DNA of 35,881 nucleotides from Candidatus Thiodiazotropha sp. 'RUGA' (lineage in GTDB: Bacteria > Pseudomonadota > Gammaproteobacteria > Chromatiales > Chromatiaceae). Made by a program: the position numbers and the translations under genes. Positions 25,382 to 35,881 of this stretch are shown here, in pieces (position 1 is the first letter of the stretch; each line of letters opens with the position of its first letter). Under the pieces are notes generated by a model, which worked only from the letters and a program-made list of their open reading frames with translations, did not search any database and was not told the DNA's origin. The stretch is from assembly GCA_016842065.1 (NCBI GenBank), contig JAEPDS010000004.1:1-35881 (forward strand), given 5' to 3'.

Positions 25382-25819
25382 TTAGCTATTCAACCAGAAG
25401 GTCACCGGGCCATCGTTGATCAGCTCCACCTGCATGTCCGCACCGAACACCCCGCAGGCAACCGGATTGTGTTGATCTGCCGCCTGTTCTGACAGATAAC
25501 CGAACAATTCCTTACCAAGCTGTGGCTCGGCAGCAGTGGAAAAACCAGGGCGCATCCCTTTGCGGGTATCGGCCGCGAGTGTGAACTGGGGAACCAACAG
25601 TAAACCGCCGGCAATCTCACTCAGGCTCAGATTCATCCGACCCTGTTGATCAGGAAACACCCGGTAGCCGAGTAGCCGTTGCAACAAGCGGTCCGCCTTG
25701 CTTCGGTCATCCCCTTTCTCGACACCAACCAGCACCACCAATCCGGTGCCAATCTCGGCGACCGACTCTCCATCGATCAACACCCGTGCCTGTTTGGCCC
25801 GCTGCAGCAGTCCGATCAC
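25382..25819 (-). CDS. dtd: D-aminoacyl-tRNA deacylase
   Basis: A 145-residue dimeric editing enzyme that removes D-amino acids (and glycine) from mischarged tRNA. It starts MIGLLQRAKQARVLIDGESV. The two active-site motifs are seen as VPQFTLAADTRKGMRPGF (usual form SQFTL; Ser is Pro here) and, near the C-terminus, NDGPVTFWLNS, the cross-subunit Gly-cisPro motif. The length is normal. The start overlaps the pip stop by four bases, so the two genes are coupled. Confidence 0.95.
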   Translation of the reverse strand: MIGLLQRAKQARVLIDGESVAEIGTGLVVLVGVEKGDDRSKADRLLQRLLGYRVFPDQQGRMNLSLSEIAGGLLLVPQFTLAADTRKGMRPGFSTAAEPQLGKELFGYLSEQAADQHNPVACGVFGADMQVELINDGPVTFWLNS

Positions 25820-26766
25820 CCCAGCAATCTCGCGTAGTGTTGTGTGGCTTCCACCAGTGCACTGCGAATTCCGGTTTCTGTCGCTGAGTGACCCGCATCC
25901 GCAACAACTTTCAGTTCACTGTCGGGCCAGGCCTGGTGTAACTCCCAGGCAGACTTCATTGGACAGATCAGATCATAGCGCCCCTGCACAATCGTACCGG
26001 GGATGCCGGCCAGTTGTGTCGCCTCCTTGAGTAGCTGATCAGGTCGAAGAAAGGCATGGTTGACAAAATAGTGCGCTTCGATGCGTGCCAGGCTGAGGGC
26101 AGTATGGGGGTCTGAAAAGAAACCGACCACCGACGGATTGGTCAGCAGGCTGGAGGTTCTGCCCTCCCAGACCGACCAGGCTTTGGCGGCTGCCATACGG
26201 GAGATCTCATCGTCACCGGTCAATCGCCGGTAATAGGCGTGCAGCAGATTCTCTCTCTCATGTTGCGCTATCGGAGCAACAAAATCCTGCCAATAATCGG
26301 GAAAAACCCAACTCGCACCTTGCTGATAAAACCACTCGATCTCCTGATCCCGACAGAGAAAGATGCCTCTCAAGATCAGCGCCGTCACCCGCTCAGGATG
26401 GGCCTGGGCATAGGCTAACGCAAGGGTTGAGCCCCAGGATCCGCCAAACAGCAACCATCTATCGATCTTCAGTGCCTGACGGATACGTTCAATATCTTCG
26501 ACCAGGTCCCAGGTCGTATTGTCCTGCAATGAAGCATGAGGCGTAGAACGTCCGCTACCCCGTTGATCAAACAGTACGATCCGGTAGAGCTCAGGGTCAA
26601 AGAACTGTCGATGGTAAGGTTCGCAACCGGCACCTGGTCCGCCGTGCAGAAACAGCGCCGGAATCCCACCAGGATTGCCCACCTCCTCAATGTAGAGATG
26701 GTGTTGATGATCAACAGCAAGCCGCTGTGTCTTATAGGGTTCTATGGCTGGATAGAGGTCATTCAT
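25816..26766 (-). CDS. pip: Proline iminopeptidase
   Basis: About 316 residues from the ATG at 26766 (MNDLYPAIEPYKTQRLAVDH), which matches the usual N-terminus of the S33 family; the longer frame from 26808 adds 14 unlikely residues. It is an alpha/beta hydrolase that removes N-terminal proline from peptides. The oxyanion region is LFLHGGPGAGCEPYHRQFFD, followed by LFDQRGSGRSTPHA. The nucleophile elbow is LFGGSWGSTLALAYAQAHPE (Ser in GGSWGS), the acid is in GRYDLICP, and the catalytic His is in DAGHSATE. It overlaps dtd by four bases and is divergent from the small-RNA array; the first GacA-type box begins 15 bp from its start. Confidence 0.95.
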   Translation of the reverse strand: MNDLYPAIEPYKTQRLAVDHQHHLYIEEVGNPGGIPALFLHGGPGAGCEPYHRQFFDPELYRIVLFDQRGSGRSTPHASLQDNTTWDLVEDIERIRQALKIDRWLLFGGSWGSTLALAYAQAHPERVTALILRGIFLCRDQEIEWFYQQGASWVFPDYWQDFVAPIAQHERENLLHAYYRRLTGDDEISRMAAAKAWSVWEGRTSSLLTNPSVVGFFSDPHTALSLARIEAHYFVNHAFLRPDQLLKEATQLAGIPGTIVQGRYDLICPMKSAWELHQAWPDSELKVVADAGHSATETGIRSALVEATQHYARLLG

Positions 26767-26781
26767 AATCGATCTGTTAAG

Positions 26782-26821
26782 TGTAAGAATCACCCTATGC
26801 TCTGACAAGACAATTCTTACG
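26782..26821 (+). promoter_or_regulatory. Tandem GacA/UvrY-type boxes of sRNA copy A
   Basis: Box 1 is 26782-26799 (TGTAAG-AATCAC-CCTATG) with a perfect left half only. Box 2 is 26804-26821 (GACAAG-ACAATT-CTTACG) with a good right half. The centres are 22 bp apart, as in copies B, C and D, and box 1 is centred 87.5 bp before the RNA stem. These are the weakest boxes of the four. Confidence 0.6.
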
Positions 26822-26876
26822 CGTTGCCGGTTAATTTTCCCACATCAATAGGCAGGGCTTTATGCCAAGATAATCC

Positions 26877-26990
26877 CGTCATCATCAAGGAAGAACTGGC
26901 TTGTAGCGCACAAGGTAAACCATGGACAGGTTGCTTAGCAAAACAAGCTGATGACAGAAAGCCCAACGCAGGGATTGCAGTTGGGCTTTC
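26877..26990 (+). ncRNA. RsmX/Y/Z-like (CsrB-type) small RNA, copy A
   Basis: The first of four similar sRNA genes. The RNA would be about 114 nt. An outer stem pairs GTCATC (26878-26883) with GATGAC (26950-26955), enclosing GGA motifs at 26889 (AAGGA) and 26924 (ATGGA). A third (AGGGA) is in the terminator loop. It has only three GGA, fewer than the other copies, and its internal conserved block (GCTTAGCAAAACAAGC) is altered. An extended -10 (TG-C-CAAGAT, 26863-26871) ends six bases before the stem, as in all copies. The role would be to sequester CsrA/RsmA; this copy may be partly decayed. Confidence 0.75.
26958..26990 (+). terminator. Intrinsic terminator of sRNA copy A
   Basis: AAAGCCCAAC pairs with GTTGGGCTTT, extended by GCA/TGC with one bulged A, around a GGGAT loop. 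The T tract is interrupted (CTTTCACTTTT), so it is the weakest terminator of the four. Confidence 0.8.
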
Positions 26991-27063
26991 ACTTTTAAGG
27001 CGACGGAAAACAGCGATCCTGATTGCTTGCGGCAGCCAATCTCGAACCCGTGGATCGAGCGCG

Positions 27064-27103
27064 TGTAGGAAAATTCTGACACACCAACAGGATGATTCCT
27101 ACA
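27064..27103 (+). promoter_or_regulatory. Tandem GacA/UvrY-type boxes of sRNA copy B
   Basis: Box 1 is TGTAGG-AAAATT-CTGACA (27064-27081). Box 2 is AACAGG-ATGATT-CCTACA (27086-27103). The centres are 22 bp apart; box 1 is centred 87.5 bp before the RNA stem. The outer halves GTGTAGGAA and TTCCTACAC also form a 9-bp inverted repeat. Confidence 0.75.
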
Positions 27104-27158
27104 CCACAAAGGTAACTTTTCCCAATTTTTTTTGTGGGATTCCGTGTCATCATTAACT

Positions 27159-27278
27159 TGTCGTCAATCAAGGACGTGTTACAGGACAAGCCACAACGGA
27201 TGGTAGATGGACGAGGAGCTTTGCCAACCAAGCCGATGACAACCAAGCCCAACTGCATGGATTGCGGTTGGGCTTTTT
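27159..27278 (+). ncRNA. RsmX/Y/Z-like (CsrB-type) small RNA, copy B
   Basis: About 120 nt. The outer stem pairs GTCGTC (27160-27165) with GATGAC (27235-27240), including one G-U pair where copies C and D have G-C and copy A has A-U. GGA motifs occur at 27172, 27184, 27198, 27209, 27215 and, in the terminator loop, 27259; most are ANGGA. The conserved block GCTTTGCCAACCAAGC precedes the closing stem. The extended -10 is TG-T-CATCAT (27145-27153). It probably sequesters CsrA/RsmA, based on size, GGA density, stem architecture and GacA-type upstream boxes. Confidence 0.85.
27245..27278 (+). terminator. Intrinsic terminator of sRNA copy B
   Basis: AAGCCCAACTGCA pairs with TGCGGTTGGGCTT (one T-G pair) around a TGGAT loop, followed by a run of five T. 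The loop presents ATGGAT, a good CsrA-type site. Confidence 0.92.
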
Positions 27279-27364
27279 CATTTCCCCTACCCCATCCCCA
27301 GAAAAACGAGCCGGATCACTGCAACAGACAGCAGCATCTGGCTGCCCCGACCTGCCCTTTTTGA

Positions 27365-27404
27365 TGTAAGAATTTTCTTACAGCCATTAGAGAAAAATCT
27401 CACA
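27365..27404 (+). promoter_or_regulatory. Tandem GacA/UvrY-type boxes of sRNA copy C
   Basis: Box 1, TGTAAGAATTTTCTTACA (27365-27382), is a perfect match to the Pseudomonas GacA upstream activating sequence TGTAAG-N6-CTTACA. Box 2 is TTAGAG-AAAAAT-CTCACA (27387-27404). The centres are 22 bp apart; box 1 is centred 86.5 bp before the RNA stem. Confidence 0.9.
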
Positions 27405-27458
27405 CATAAAATGTGAATATTGCCAAGTTTGCTGTAAAAAACTGTGTCAAAATTCAGT

Positions 27459-27578
27459 TGTCGTCATCAAGGACGTCTCTAAAGGGAAAACTTCGTAAAG
27501 GATTTTGCAGGGAAGGGAAGCTTAGCCAACCAAGCCGACGACTATAAGCCCAACTGCATGGATCGCAGTTGGGCTTTT
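27459..27578 (+). ncRNA. RsmX/Y/Z-like (CsrB-type) small RNA, copy C
   Basis: About 120 nt. The outer stem GTCGTC (27460-27465) pairs perfectly with GACGAC (27537-27542). Six GGA motifs occur, at 27471, 27485, 27500, 27511, 27516 and, in the terminator loop, 27560; all are ANGGA, the CsrA core. The conserved block GCTTAGCCAACCAAGC (27520-27535) can form a small GCTT/AAGC hairpin. The extended -10 is TG-T-CAAAAT (27445-27453). This copy has the perfect GacA box and the most binding motifs, so it is a strong candidate for an active CsrA/RsmA sponge. It has no open reading frame of note. Confidence 0.9.
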
Positions 27579-27585
27579 ATCTTTT
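27546..27585 (+). terminator. Intrinsic terminator of sRNA copy C
   Basis: A perfect 12-bp stem (AAGCCCAACTGC with GCAGTTGGGCTT) closes an ATGGATC loop, followed by TT-ATC-TTTTT. The loop holds an ANGGA motif. Confidence 0.93.
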
Positions 27586-27589
27586 TAGA

Positions 27590-27810
27590 CCTAAGAAGTC
27601 CTCTCTGCAACGATGGATCGCCATGTTCAGACACGCCATCCATGGTCTGTGCAGAAATTCGCAAACCAAAAAAACTCTCTCAGCAGGCATTTGGAAACCT
27701 TCAGCAACCGCTGAGAAATTCTGAAATCTGCCTACTCTTCGCAATAATGTCTGAAATTGGTCAATTTCCTCAAATTTGACACAATTATTAACCTTAAAAT
27801 TCAATAAGTT
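27590..27810. other. Spacer between sRNA copies C and D, nothing recognised
   Basis: About 220 bp with no supported coding frame, repeat or RNA. It is longer than the A-B and B-C spacers. Confidence 0.5.
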
Positions 27811-27814
27811 AGAA

Positions 27815-27854
27815 TGTAGGAAAAATCTTACAACTAATTACGAAAATTCTCACA
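27815..27854 (+). promoter_or_regulatory. Tandem GacA/UvrY-type boxes of sRNA copy D
   Basis: Box 1 is TGTAGG-AAAAAT-CTTACA (27815-27832). Box 2 is ATTACG-AAAATT-CTCACA (27837-27854). The centres are 22 bp apart; box 1 is centred 86.5 bp before the RNA stem. A third, weak half site (CCCACA, 27872-27877) continues at a similar phase. Confidence 0.85.
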
Positions 27855-27908
27855 TGAACATGGTGCGAATTCCCACAGTAAATGTGAACTTTTATGTCAC
27901 AATTTAAT

Positions 27909-28028
27909 TGTCGTCATCAAGGACGTTACTTCAGGGATATGTAGCAAAGGATTGCACAGGGAAGAAATGCTTAGCCAACCAAGCCGACGACTGTAAGCCC
28001 AACCGCAAGGATTGCGGTTGGGCTTTTT
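27909..28028 (+). ncRNA. RsmX/Y/Z-like (CsrB-type) small RNA, copy D
   Basis: About 120 nt. The outer stem GTCGTC (27910-27915) pairs with GACGAC (27986-27991). Five GGA motifs occur, at 27921, 27935, 27949, 27960 and, in the terminator loop, 28009; all are ANGGA. One AGGGA (27958-27962) would sit in the loop of a small GCA/TGC hairpin. The conserved GCTTAGCCAACCAAGC block is the same as in copy C. The extended -10 is TG-T-CACAAT (27895-27903). The array ends here, 73 bp before the convergent typA stop. The function is inferred as CsrA/RsmA sequestration. Confidence 0.9.
27995..28028 (+). terminator. Intrinsic terminator of sRNA copy D
   Basis: AAGCCCAACCGC pairs with GCGGTTGGGCTT over 12 bp (13 with the A-T closing pair) around AGGAT, followed by five T. 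It is directional: the opposite strand lacks a T tract. Confidence 0.93.
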
Positions 28029-28101
28029 CTTTTCAGCTCGGACAGGAGCTCCATGAGAGGGTGACCTCGCACAGTGGAGCTGCGATGAGAAATCCTCAGG
28101 A

Positions 28102-29913
28102 CTACTCCCTGGAGGCCCGTTTCCGCTCATGCTCCTTGAGGTATTTCTTACGAATACGAACCTCCTGGGGCGTGACTTCCACCAGTTCATCCTCCTCGAT
28201 AAATTCCAGCGCCTGCTCCAGGCTGTAATTCAGTGGCGGAGTCAGAATGATGGCGTCATCCTTGCCGGCTGCACGAATGTTGGTCAGCTGCTTACCTTTC
28301 AGAGGATTGACCACCAGATCATTATCTCTGGCGTGAATCCCCACAATCTGCCCCTCATAGACTTCATCACCCGGTGAGGTAAAGAGTCTGCCCCGCTCCT
28401 GCAGATTATAGAGGGCAAAACCGAGGGATTTACCCTGACTGTTGGAGATCAGCACACCGTTTTTACGTGGCGCAATACCCCCATGCTGGGCAGGACCGTA
28501 GTGGTCGAAGACATGGTAGATCAGGCCGGTGCCTGAGGTGCTGGTCATGAACTCTGTTTGAAACCCGATCAGACCGCGCGAGGGTATGATGTAGTCGAGG
28601 CGCACTCTTCCCTTACCGTCCGGTACCATATCCTTGAGTTCACCTTTGCGGTTACCCAGGGCCTCCATGATCGTTCCCTGGTCGTTCTCCTCCACATCCA
28701 CGGTCAACTGCTCATAAGGTTCGCAGATCTCACCGTCGACCTCGCGGAATATTACCTCGGGACGGGAGACGGCCAATTCGAATCCCTCCCGTCGCATACT
28801 TTCAATCAGTACCGAGAGATGCAGTTCGCCCCGTCCGGAGACTTTGAATTTCTCAGGATCGGTTCCCTCCTCGACGCGCAGTGCAACGTTGTGGATCAAC
28901 TCCCGTTCAAGTCGCTCCTTGAGCTGTCTCGAGGTCAGATACTTGCCCTCCTTACCGGCAAAGGGCGAGGTATTGACCTGAAATGTCATGGAGACGGTCG
29001 GTTCATCCACCGTCAGCGGCGGCATGCTCTCCACATGTTCAGGATCACACAGGGTATCCGAGACGTTCGGTGCCTCCATGCCACTGATCGCGATGATATC
29101 GCCGGCTGTCGCCTCATTGACTTCAAATCGCTCAAGCCCCAGATAGCCATAGACCACGCCGATCTTGGCGCGATGCTGCTCACCGTCGTACTTCACCACC
29201 ATCACCTGCTGATTGGGCTTGATACTTCCCCGGGTCACCCGACCGACCGCGATGGCTCCGACGTAACTGTTGTAATCCAGATTCGAGATCTGCATCTGGA
29301 ACGGCGCTTCGGGATCCACCTCAGGCGCAGGACAGTGGCTGACAATGGCTTCGAACAGGGTTGTCATGTCACCTTCGGTTATATCGCTTTCCAGACCGGC
29401 ATAGCCACCGACCGCGGAGGTGTAGACAATCGGAAAATCGAGCTGATCATCACTTGCGCCGAGCCGGTCGAAGAGCTCAAACACCTGATCGATTACCCAG
29501 TCCGGACGGGATCCGGGCTTATCGATCTTGTTCACCACCACAATCGGCCGAAGACCATGTTGAAAAGCTTTCTGCGTTACAAACCGGGTTTGCGGCATCG
29601 GGCCTTCCTGGGCATCCACCAGTAGCAGCACCGAATCCACCATCGAGAGCACCCGCTCCACCTCACCACCGAAATCCGCATGCCCGGGGGTGTCGACGAT
29701 ATTGATACGGTAGTCGTTCCAACGGATCGCGGTATTCTTGGAGAGGATGGTGATACCCCGCTCCCGCTCCTGGTCATTGGAATCCATCACCCGTTCGACC
29801 TTGCCGAATCGTTCGCCGAGGGTACCGGACTGTTTCAGCAACTCATCCACAAGGGTGGTCTTGCCATGATCAACGTGAGCGATTATGGCGATATTTCTAA
29901 GATTCTCGATCAT
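28102..29913 (-). CDS. typA: Ribosome-associated translational GTPase TypA/BipA
   Basis: A 603-residue GTPase of the EF-G-like family that acts on the ribosome and in ribosome assembly under stress. The G domain shows [20 protein letters not shown] (P loop), [14 protein letters not shown] (switch I), [20 protein letters not shown] (G3) and [14 protein letters not shown] (G4). Domain II follows at about 200-300, and the TypA-specific C-terminal half contains [20 protein letters not shown], then [20 protein letters not shown] and [20 protein letters not shown]. The length is typical. It is convergent with the sRNA array and divergent from the MoxR operon. No terminator of its own is obvious between its stop and sRNA copy D. 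Confidence 0.98.
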
Positions 29914-35042: not shown

Positions 35043-35881
35043 TCAGGCGCTACTCGGTTTTGCTGCTGCTCTGCTATACCACCCTGGTGGACGCAGACTG
35101 GTTCCTGAACAAAGAGCAACAGGCCGCAGAAAACTATCAGCAGGGCCTCTACGAAGAGGCGGCTGAGGGCTTTCAGGATCCCTATCGTCGCGGCGTGGCC
35201 AACTTCCGGACCGGTGACTACGAAAGCGCGATCGAAGAATTCAAACAGGTTGAACGGGAAGCGGTAAAGCTCGACGCCCAATACAACCTGGGCAACAGCC
35301 ACTACCGGATGGAGGCGTTTGAGCAGGCCGTGAAAGCCTATGAATCCGTTCTCCAGGAAGATCCGGATCATCAAGATGCCAGACACAATCTAGCGCTTGC
35401 CAGGGATAAGCTGGAACAAGAGCAGGAAGAAGAGCAAGAGGAACAGGAACAACAGGAACAGGAACAACAGGAGCAGGAACAACAGGAGCAGGAACAACAG
35501 GAGCAGGAACAACAGGAGCAGGAACAACAGGAGCAGGAACAACAGGAGCAGGAGCAACAGGAGCAGGAGCAACAGGAGCAGGAGCAACAGGAGCAGGAGC
35601 AACAGGAGCAGGAGCAACAGGAGCAGGAGCAACAGGAGCAGGAACAACAGGAGCAGGAACAACAGGAGCAGGAGCAACAGGAGCAGGAGCAACAGGAGCA
35701 GGAACAAAAGGAGCAGGATCAGCAGTCTTCAGGTGAATCGGAAGAGCAGGATGAAGAGCAGTCTTCCTCTGGAGAACAAGAGCAGGAAGAGCAACAGAGC
35801 GGCGACCAGGATGAGCAGAGTGATTCCCAGTCGGGTGAGGAAGAGGAGCAACATGAACAGCAAAGCGAGTCATCGGACGAG
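35039..35881 (+). CDS. TPR protein with long Glu/Gln tract (Bat operon), partial at right edge
   Basis: 281 codons are visible with no stop before the edge. The start ATGA overlaps the preceding stop. A signal peptide or membrane start (MIRRYSVLLLLCYTTLVDAD) is followed by TPR motifs (about 30-115: YQQGLYEEAAEGFQDPYRRG, NFRTGDYESAIEEFKQVERE, YNLGNSHYRMEAFEQAVKAY, DHQDARHNLALARDKLEQ). From about residue 120 the protein becomes an almost pure Glu/Gln tract of roughly 100 residues encoded by a 15-bp minisatellite, then an acidic Ser/Glu/Gln region. TPR proteins with acidic tails are normal in this operon position, but the length of the pure tract is unusual. A BatD-like gene is expected just beyond the window. 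Confidence 0.93.
   Translation, partial: MIRRYSVLLLLCYTTLVDADWFLNKEQQAAENYQQGLYEEAAEGFQDPYRRGVANFRTGDYESAIEEFKQVEREAVKLDAQYNLGNSHYRMEAFEQAVKAYESVLQEDPDHQDARHNLALARDKLEQEQEEEQEEQEQQEQEQQEQEQQEQEQQEQEQQEQEQQEQEQQEQEQQEQEQQEQEQQEQEQQEQEQQEQEQQEQEQQEQEQQEQEQQEQEQQEQEQKEQDQQSSGESEEQDEEQSSSGEQEQEEQQSGDQDEQSDSQSGEEEEQHEQQSESSDE
35447..35708 (+). repeat. 15-bp tandem minisatellite encoding QEQEQ
   Basis: About 17 units of CAGGAGCAGGARCAA follow one another without a frame break. The last Glu codon of the unit varies (GAA or GAG) in blocks, which suggests duplication by slippage or recombination rather than independent point change. Confidence 0.92.

Follow-up and report, generated by a model that had tools for sequence, protein, structure and literature searches.

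Four tandem small RNA (sRNA) genes, located on the + strand between pip and typA in a member of the clam-symbiont genus Candidatus Thiodiazotropha, very probably encode RNAs that sequester CsrA. The array lies in a window of 35,881 nt (the whole stretch of DNA that was analyzed), and its units, their boxes, their conservation and covariation, the orthology of the units between species and the CsrA and UvrY-type genes were computed here. In the congener Candidatus Thiodiazotropha endolucinida, csrA is reported at 78,450-85,249 median TPM across three clam hosts and occupies the first row in the table of shared highly transcribed genes, from which hypothetical proteins were excluded; rbcS reaches up to 97,218 in one host (PMC13137333). 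Another study of lucinid symbionts places csrA among the shared top-100 transcripts (PMC12172469), and the terms 'sRNA' and 'small RNA' are absent from the main texts of both articles. Likely antagonists of this highly transcribed symbiont CsrA are now named and located, and control of a dominant symbiont regulator thereby becomes testable in existing RNA data. Moreover, the array would constitute a case of sRNA gene amplification retained by selection across several species.

A first-pass annotation had placed four tandem units between pip and typA, and this was confirmed, with the lengths listed below. Positions are those of the window, except for the fifth copy, which is located on another contig of the source genome (G000).

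25816-26766, - strand: pip, prolyl aminopeptidase, divergent from the array (TIGR01249, 433 bits)
26782-26844, + strand: promoter region of unit 1, with box I at 26782-26799 (degenerate, GacA-type), box II at 26804-26821 and a CCCACA element ending at 26844
26878-26990, + strand: sRNA unit A1, divergent copy, 113 nt, terminator stem at about 26958-26989 with GGGA in the loop
27064-27103, + strand: GacA-type boxes of unit 2, box I at 27064-27081 and box II at 27086-27103
27160-27277, + strand: sRNA unit A2, 118 nt, terminator at 27245-27275
27365-27404, + strand: GacA-type boxes of unit 3, box I at 27365-27382 (perfect TGTAAG-N6-CTTACA) and box II at 27387-27404
27460-27578, + strand: sRNA unit A3, 119 nt, terminator at 27546-27576
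27815-27877, + strand: GacA-type boxes of unit 4, box I at 27815-27832, box II at 27837-27854 and a third box-like element ending at 27877
27910-28027, + strand: sRNA unit A4, 118 nt, terminator at 27995-28025
28102-29913, - strand: typA/bipA, translational GTPase, converging on the array (TIGR01394, 943 bits)
G000 C7:45916-46037, - strand: fifth copy (locus B), between folK and the DUF1015 gene

The 3' end of each unit folds into a hairpin with up to 12 base pairs and a GGA-bearing loop. This terminator of fixed design, as the first-pass annotation had called it, is present in all four units: a simple scan caught those of units 2-4 and missed that of unit 1, which rests on the conserved stem. 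Units 2-4 are therefore intergenic genes with an intrinsic terminator by the scan, and unit 1 likewise by its conserved stem. The common outer stem of six base pairs that had also been proposed was found in every unit, where the 5' GTC[AG]TC pairs with GA[CT]GAC, and it covaries, its fourth pair being A-U, G-U, G-C and G-C in units A1, A2, A3 and A4. The minimum free energies of units 1-4 lie below those of shuffled sequences, with folding z-scores of -4.35, -3.30, -2.46 and -3.95. The analysis of structure was carried out on an alignment (model R2) of 46 RNAs; the collection comprised 65, of which 57 are distinct, and identical and some near-identical sequences were left out. In these 46 sequences the outer stem and the terminator are paired in 98.2% of cells, with two-sided changes in 12 of their 18 pairs; the covariation score was 0.502 against 0.227 in shuffles, none of 500 reaching 0.502, and it was at most 0.107 when slid. 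RNAalifold predicted the same 18 pairs unaided from the 46 sequences; no consensus inner hairpin emerged there, and thus none for the GGA motifs outside the terminator.

The longest near-invariant segment of the RNAs is UUNGCCAACCAA. Within the collection, 52 of the 57 distinct RNAs contain GCCAACCAA, which is lacking in the A1 units and in one further genus (G026); the core of unit 1 is TTAGCAAAACAA, replaced by TTAGCCAAGCAA in the array genome G012. The GCTT-N8-AAGC block described in the first-pass annotation stands for the units of the array, but neither the locus-B paralogue nor other genera keep it as a stem. A GCTT/AAGC hairpin was accordingly rejected as a conserved stem outside locus A (the typA site) of the genus, the core region being conserved as sequence and not as stem in the paralogue and in other genera. 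Unit 1, with its degenerate box, its altered core and a terminator outside the simple scan, is a divergent copy.

Several motifs per unit, mostly ANGGA, had been claimed, and the counts bear this out. Units A1 to A4 carry 3, 4, 6 and 5 ANGGA and the fifth copy 5, a total of 23 against a mean of 4.2 and a maximum of 12 in 2000 dinucleotide-preserving shuffles. Plain GGA carries less weight than ANGGA: the same five RNAs total 26, against a shuffle mean of 14.1 and a maximum of 23. Taken singly and compared with dinucleotide shuffles, units 2-4 lie above expectation for plain GGA (p 0.024, 0.011 and 0.034), and no significant excess was found for unit 1 (p 0.33) or for the locus-B copy (0.091). 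Unit 1 contains 3 GGA, the chance level, and 3 ANGGA, with p 0.016 in dinucleotide and 0.053 in mononucleotide shuffles. ANGGA and GGA thus exceed chance for the five RNAs together, while unit 1 alone is marginal. A GGA within the last 35 nt, the segment containing the terminator hairpin, is found in all 57 distinct RNAs despite the changing sequence of the terminator stem, and the terminator GGA sits between covarying arms.

The promoters were scored by the number of matches, out of 12, to the Pseudomonas GacA site TGTAAG-N6-CTTACA as given in PMC4950607, with R and Y permitted at one position each. Box I of units 1-4 scores 10, 11, 12 and 12 and is located at -96, -96, -95 and -95, being perfect in A3, near perfect in A4 and A2 and degenerate in A1. 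The proposal that a GacA/UvrY box precedes each unit is hence upheld in position for all four (-95/-96) but only in degenerate form for unit 1, and the single perfect Pseudomonas-type box that had been reported is that of unit 3 (27365-27382). The alignment places a second box-like element 22 bp past box I in all four units and a third one, of CCCACA type, 23 bp further on in A1 and A4. A simple scan found no sigma-70-like promoter directly at any unit. Across the genus, 32 of the 36 locus-A promoters have their best box match at -95/-96 and four have it at -74, and in the alignment these two locus-A classes differ by a 22-column gap; at locus B (folK/DUF1015) it lies at -73/-74 in 22 of 22. 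A best match at one of these distances, with scores from 9 to 12 of 12, was found in all 58 genus promoters scored; the scoring covered 64 of 65 promoters, unit 4 of G009 being without flank in the assembly. Among the six promoters from other genera, three have a box at -73 (10/12 to 12/12) and three have no convincing box. As a control, the Stutzerimonas RsmY gene, recognized by the Rfam model with 95.5 bits, has TGTAGGAAATGGCTTACA at -75. The locus-B box of the species studied here is weak, with 9/12, a score equalled or exceeded by 14.5% of shuffles. The 4.77 Mb genome contains the exact TGTARG-N6-CTTACA three times, twice within the array. The third, on contig C18, was rejected as a sixth RNA, since it is located inside a 516-aa ORF that by its look we take to be phage-like. 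With up to one mismatch, the genome holds 19 strand-wise matches against 32 for a reversed control, so that the box by itself is weak evidence.

The source genome, in which the search for the regulator was carried out, encodes a UvrY/GacA homologue of 279.8 bits against a curated cut-off of 280. The score lies 0.2 bits under the cut-off, which is no formal proof of orthology. Near it, with one gene between, lies a gene that we take to be uvrC. Canonical csrA was found at 90.6 bits in 18 of the 22 genus genomes, and in the one locus seen in full the order is lysC-csrA-tRNA-Ser. In the source assembly the matches to the flanks of canonical csrA run up to the very ends of contigs C33 and C78; hence csrA is missing from the assembly and not shown to be lost, and its apparent loss was rejected and read as an assembly gap. 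An element near tRNA-Ser recurs on contigs C78, C38, C30 and C110 of G000, in matches of about 80-280 bases, and this repetition may have caused the gap. A divergent second CsrA, 83 aa long and with a basic tail, is encoded at G000 C13:19810-19962 (- strand; 62 bits), under the CsrA cut-offs of NCBI and over that of Pfam. It is present in five of the six array genomes and in none of the other 16 genus genomes; all of the former belong to one clade, so the coincidence of array and second CsrA counts as one event. Additional CsrA-like matches occur outside the array clade: G007 and G017 have a long form (78 bits), and G001 and G020 gave partial matches. No CsrA of any kind was found in the drafts of G012, an array genome, and G006, a non-array genome.

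The first-pass annotation had read the RNAs as CsrA antagonists, and among the points that it named as speaking against this were the lack of a CsrA or GacA homologue in the genome and the lack of conserved stems and GGA motifs in relatives. The source genome has the divergent CsrA and the UvrY/GacA homologue, and stems and GGA are conserved in relatives with covariation; the reading is supported. We infer transcription of the units, binding of UvrY, binding of CsrA and an effect of dosage, in the following way. Phosphorylated UvrY/GacA would bind the TGTARG-N6-CYTACA box and switch each unit on, perhaps with the help of one or two additional box-like elements at a spacing of 22-23 bp. The predicted transcript of about 113-119 nt, closed by the outer stem and ended by the terminator, would present 3-6 ANGGA sites, including one in the loop of the terminator. 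CsrA would bind these sites and be taken off its mRNA targets, and the four copies at typA plus the fifth at folK may raise the amount of sponge produced per UvrY signal.

The source genome was placed in the same genus as Candidatus Thiodiazotropha endoloripes, which comprises lucinid-clam symbionts, in the Sedimenticolaceae. A search of relatives with a covariance model of the four copies, suggested in the first-pass annotation, was carried out with a first model, R1, built from the four array units; it detected the RNA in all 22 genus genomes, in 6 of 13 family members outside the genus and in none of 21 others of the class. By tblastn, typA adjoins the RNA in 22/22 genus genomes and in the 6/6 R1-positive genomes of other genera, and pip lies on the other side in 20/22 and 3/6, respectively; the genus exceptions are G009, whose contig ends there so that only the typA side is present, and G017, which has no pip match in the flank. 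R1 gave a second, weaker match next to DUF1015 in eleven genus genomes, and the same RNA was found in the remaining eleven, the source genome included, when DUF1015 was used as anchor. The paralogue thus lies beside DUF1015 in 22/22 genus genomes, with folK on its other side in 21/22, the contig of G017 ending before folK. With R2, the source genome yields five RNAs, four at typA and one at folK (E 7e-17), and no sixth, nothing more being found below E 0.95. An R1 match on contig C61 (E 0.87) was rejected as a copy of the RNA because it falls at the end of an ORF that we take to be rplL, and opposite-strand matches of R1 and R2 over the array were rejected as genes, the terminators being palindromic. 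In a sample of the class, R2 matched 4 of 274 genomes, the source genome among them, in a scan whose size imposes stricter filters, so that weak matches are lost. From the distribution in the genus, in other genera and in the class sample, the RNA looks family-level.

Two further RNAs were noted with R2. In G028, from another genus of the family, a relative detected by R2 only is located at 1501-1620 with a TGTAAG-type box upstream, and neither typA nor pip is adjacent in the 3 kb examined. In an uncultured gammaproteobacterium a GGA-rich, terminator-ended candidate RNA near pip (2486-2629, - strand; R2 E 0.0047) is possibly a distant counterpart of the array RNA.

The full four-unit array is present in five genomes (G000, G002, G008, G012 and G016); a sixth, G009, is cut short at unit 4, and the remaining sixteen genus genomes have a single RNA at locus A. 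The array genomes include Ca. Thiodiazotropha endoloripes (LVKA01000008), the Stewartia floridana symbiont (NAUB01000024) and MAG.232 (JAKSBX010000074). The six array genomes group in a single clade (support 1.0), in a species tree to which the upstream flank of G017 adds noise, as it is probably not pip, given the lack of a pip-like match there. In the copy tree each unit clusters with its counterparts across the five full-array species, with support from 0.92 to 1.0, and A4 is placed beside the single copies found in other species, at a node whose support is not printed. The units being orthologous across species, the amplification predates the divergence of the species and the copies were not homogenised. 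The simplest reading of the trees is one old amplification event after which all copies were kept. Pairwise identity among the five species is 94-97% in the units (95% in A1), 82-91% in the promoters, 54-64% in the spacers and 88% in the neighbouring coding ends. The units are far more conserved than the spacers, and all four, A1 included, are thus under purifying selection.

Checks against the Rfam models RsmY, PrrB_RsmZ, CsrB and CsrC, likewise proposed beforehand, gave no match at the gathering score, and none of these models matched the array even at E 10. The best RsmY score in the source genome, elsewhere than the array, was 18.0 bits, as compared with 95.5 for the RsmY of Stutzerimonas. 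The lack of any Rfam Csr/Rsm match points to a separate sequence family that would work like RsmX/Y/Z. Like RsmX/Y/Z of Pseudomonas, the array RNAs are about 110-120 nt long, with several GGA, a terminator, a GacA box, tandem copies and a variable copy number. They differ in forming four tandem copies instead of two, in belonging to a different sequence family, in the extra box elements spaced 22-23 bp and in the pip/typA neighbourhood; moreover, they carry the UUNGCCAACCAA core, absent from the one RsmY examined, that of Stutzerimonas. They resemble CsrB/CsrC of enterics, CsrB/C/D of Vibrio and Pf1-3 of Pseudoalteromonas in presumed UvrY-type activation and CsrA sequestration. The Csr RNAs of enterics and Vibrio are longer and are found at separate loci. 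CsrB/CsrC and CsrB/C/D were set against the array through Rfam, with no match. Several copies of CsrA-sequestering RNAs per genome are common, according to the report on Pf1-3 of Pseudoalteromonas (PMC11882849). Tandem pairs are described in Pseudomonas, namely rsmX-1/rsmX-2 in P. brassicacearum and rsmX-3/rsmX-4 in P. syringae, in an article that also cites as many as five rsmX copies for P. syringae and relates the number of sRNAs to that of CsrA (PMC7911923). The suggestion that the array is unusual and may be undescribed therefore holds as far as four copies are concerned, of which no report was found in titles and abstract openings among the matches listed, from mostly non-subscription literature, but not for tandem arrangement as such, given those pairs. 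The same mostly non-subscription literature gave no report of an sRNA or GacA in Thiodiazotropha or of an sRNA in Sedimenticola.

Sequestration of CsrA leaves one feature aside: UUNGCCAACCAA is not a CsrA site, has no role within the sponge model and is unexplained by sponging. A second function of the core in CsrA sponges, by base pairing or as the site of another RNA-binding protein or a nuclease, is therefore considered, as a tentative refinement which overlaps with the sponge reading and does not exclude it. The core is kept at both loci and in other genera, the supposed stem is not, and unit 1, in which the exact core is gone, retains 95% identity among the species, as would suit specialization of the copies; against this, exact complements revealed no pairing target for the core, which could equally serve the folding or stability of a pure sponge. 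In a more extended form, held with similar reserve, the RNAs would be a new Sedimenticolaceae family with two jobs, ANGGA sponging and a second interaction via UUNGCCAACCAA, amplified to four in one clade that has a second CsrA-like protein, and with the copies specializing, unit 1 having lost the exact core and box while still under selection. A Qrr-like family of trans-acting RNAs, pairing with target mRNAs through UUNGCCAACCAA and with GGA secondary, is improbable. The presence of GCCAACCAA in most of the distinct RNAs would fit it, as would multicopy organization, Vibrio harveyi having five Qrr RNAs (PMC7911923), and a weak Rfam Qrr (RF00378) match to unit 4 that includes a GCCAAC block (E 2.1); but that match scores 18.5 bits against a gathering score of 50, far below the family threshold. 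Unlike Qrr, the array RNAs are GGA-rich, with ANGGA strongly enriched, and have UvrY-type boxes. Moreover, the genome has 8 occurrences of the exact complement TTGGTTGGCNAA, against 6 for a reversed control; the RNAs themselves account for 4, and the other 4 all fall inside open frames of at least 90 codons.

The remaining two readings dispense with a regulatory RNA and hardly deserve credence. The tandem arrangement and common origin of the copies would suit a dispersed repeat or a recently amplified, non-functional tandem duplication, but this is at odds with the R2 search, which ends at the four copies and that at folK, with the grouping of each unit with its counterparts in the five full-array species and with the conservation of units over spacers. 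Translation of the units as parts of ORFs 26824-27156 and 27908-28228, open frames of 110 and 106 aa that do exist, is just as far-fetched, since the frames cross indel-bearing spacers that are 54-60% identical, and covariation of RNA type is seen in the units.

At the end of the window (35241-35873) a - frame contains low-complexity repeats of the APVVPAPV type.
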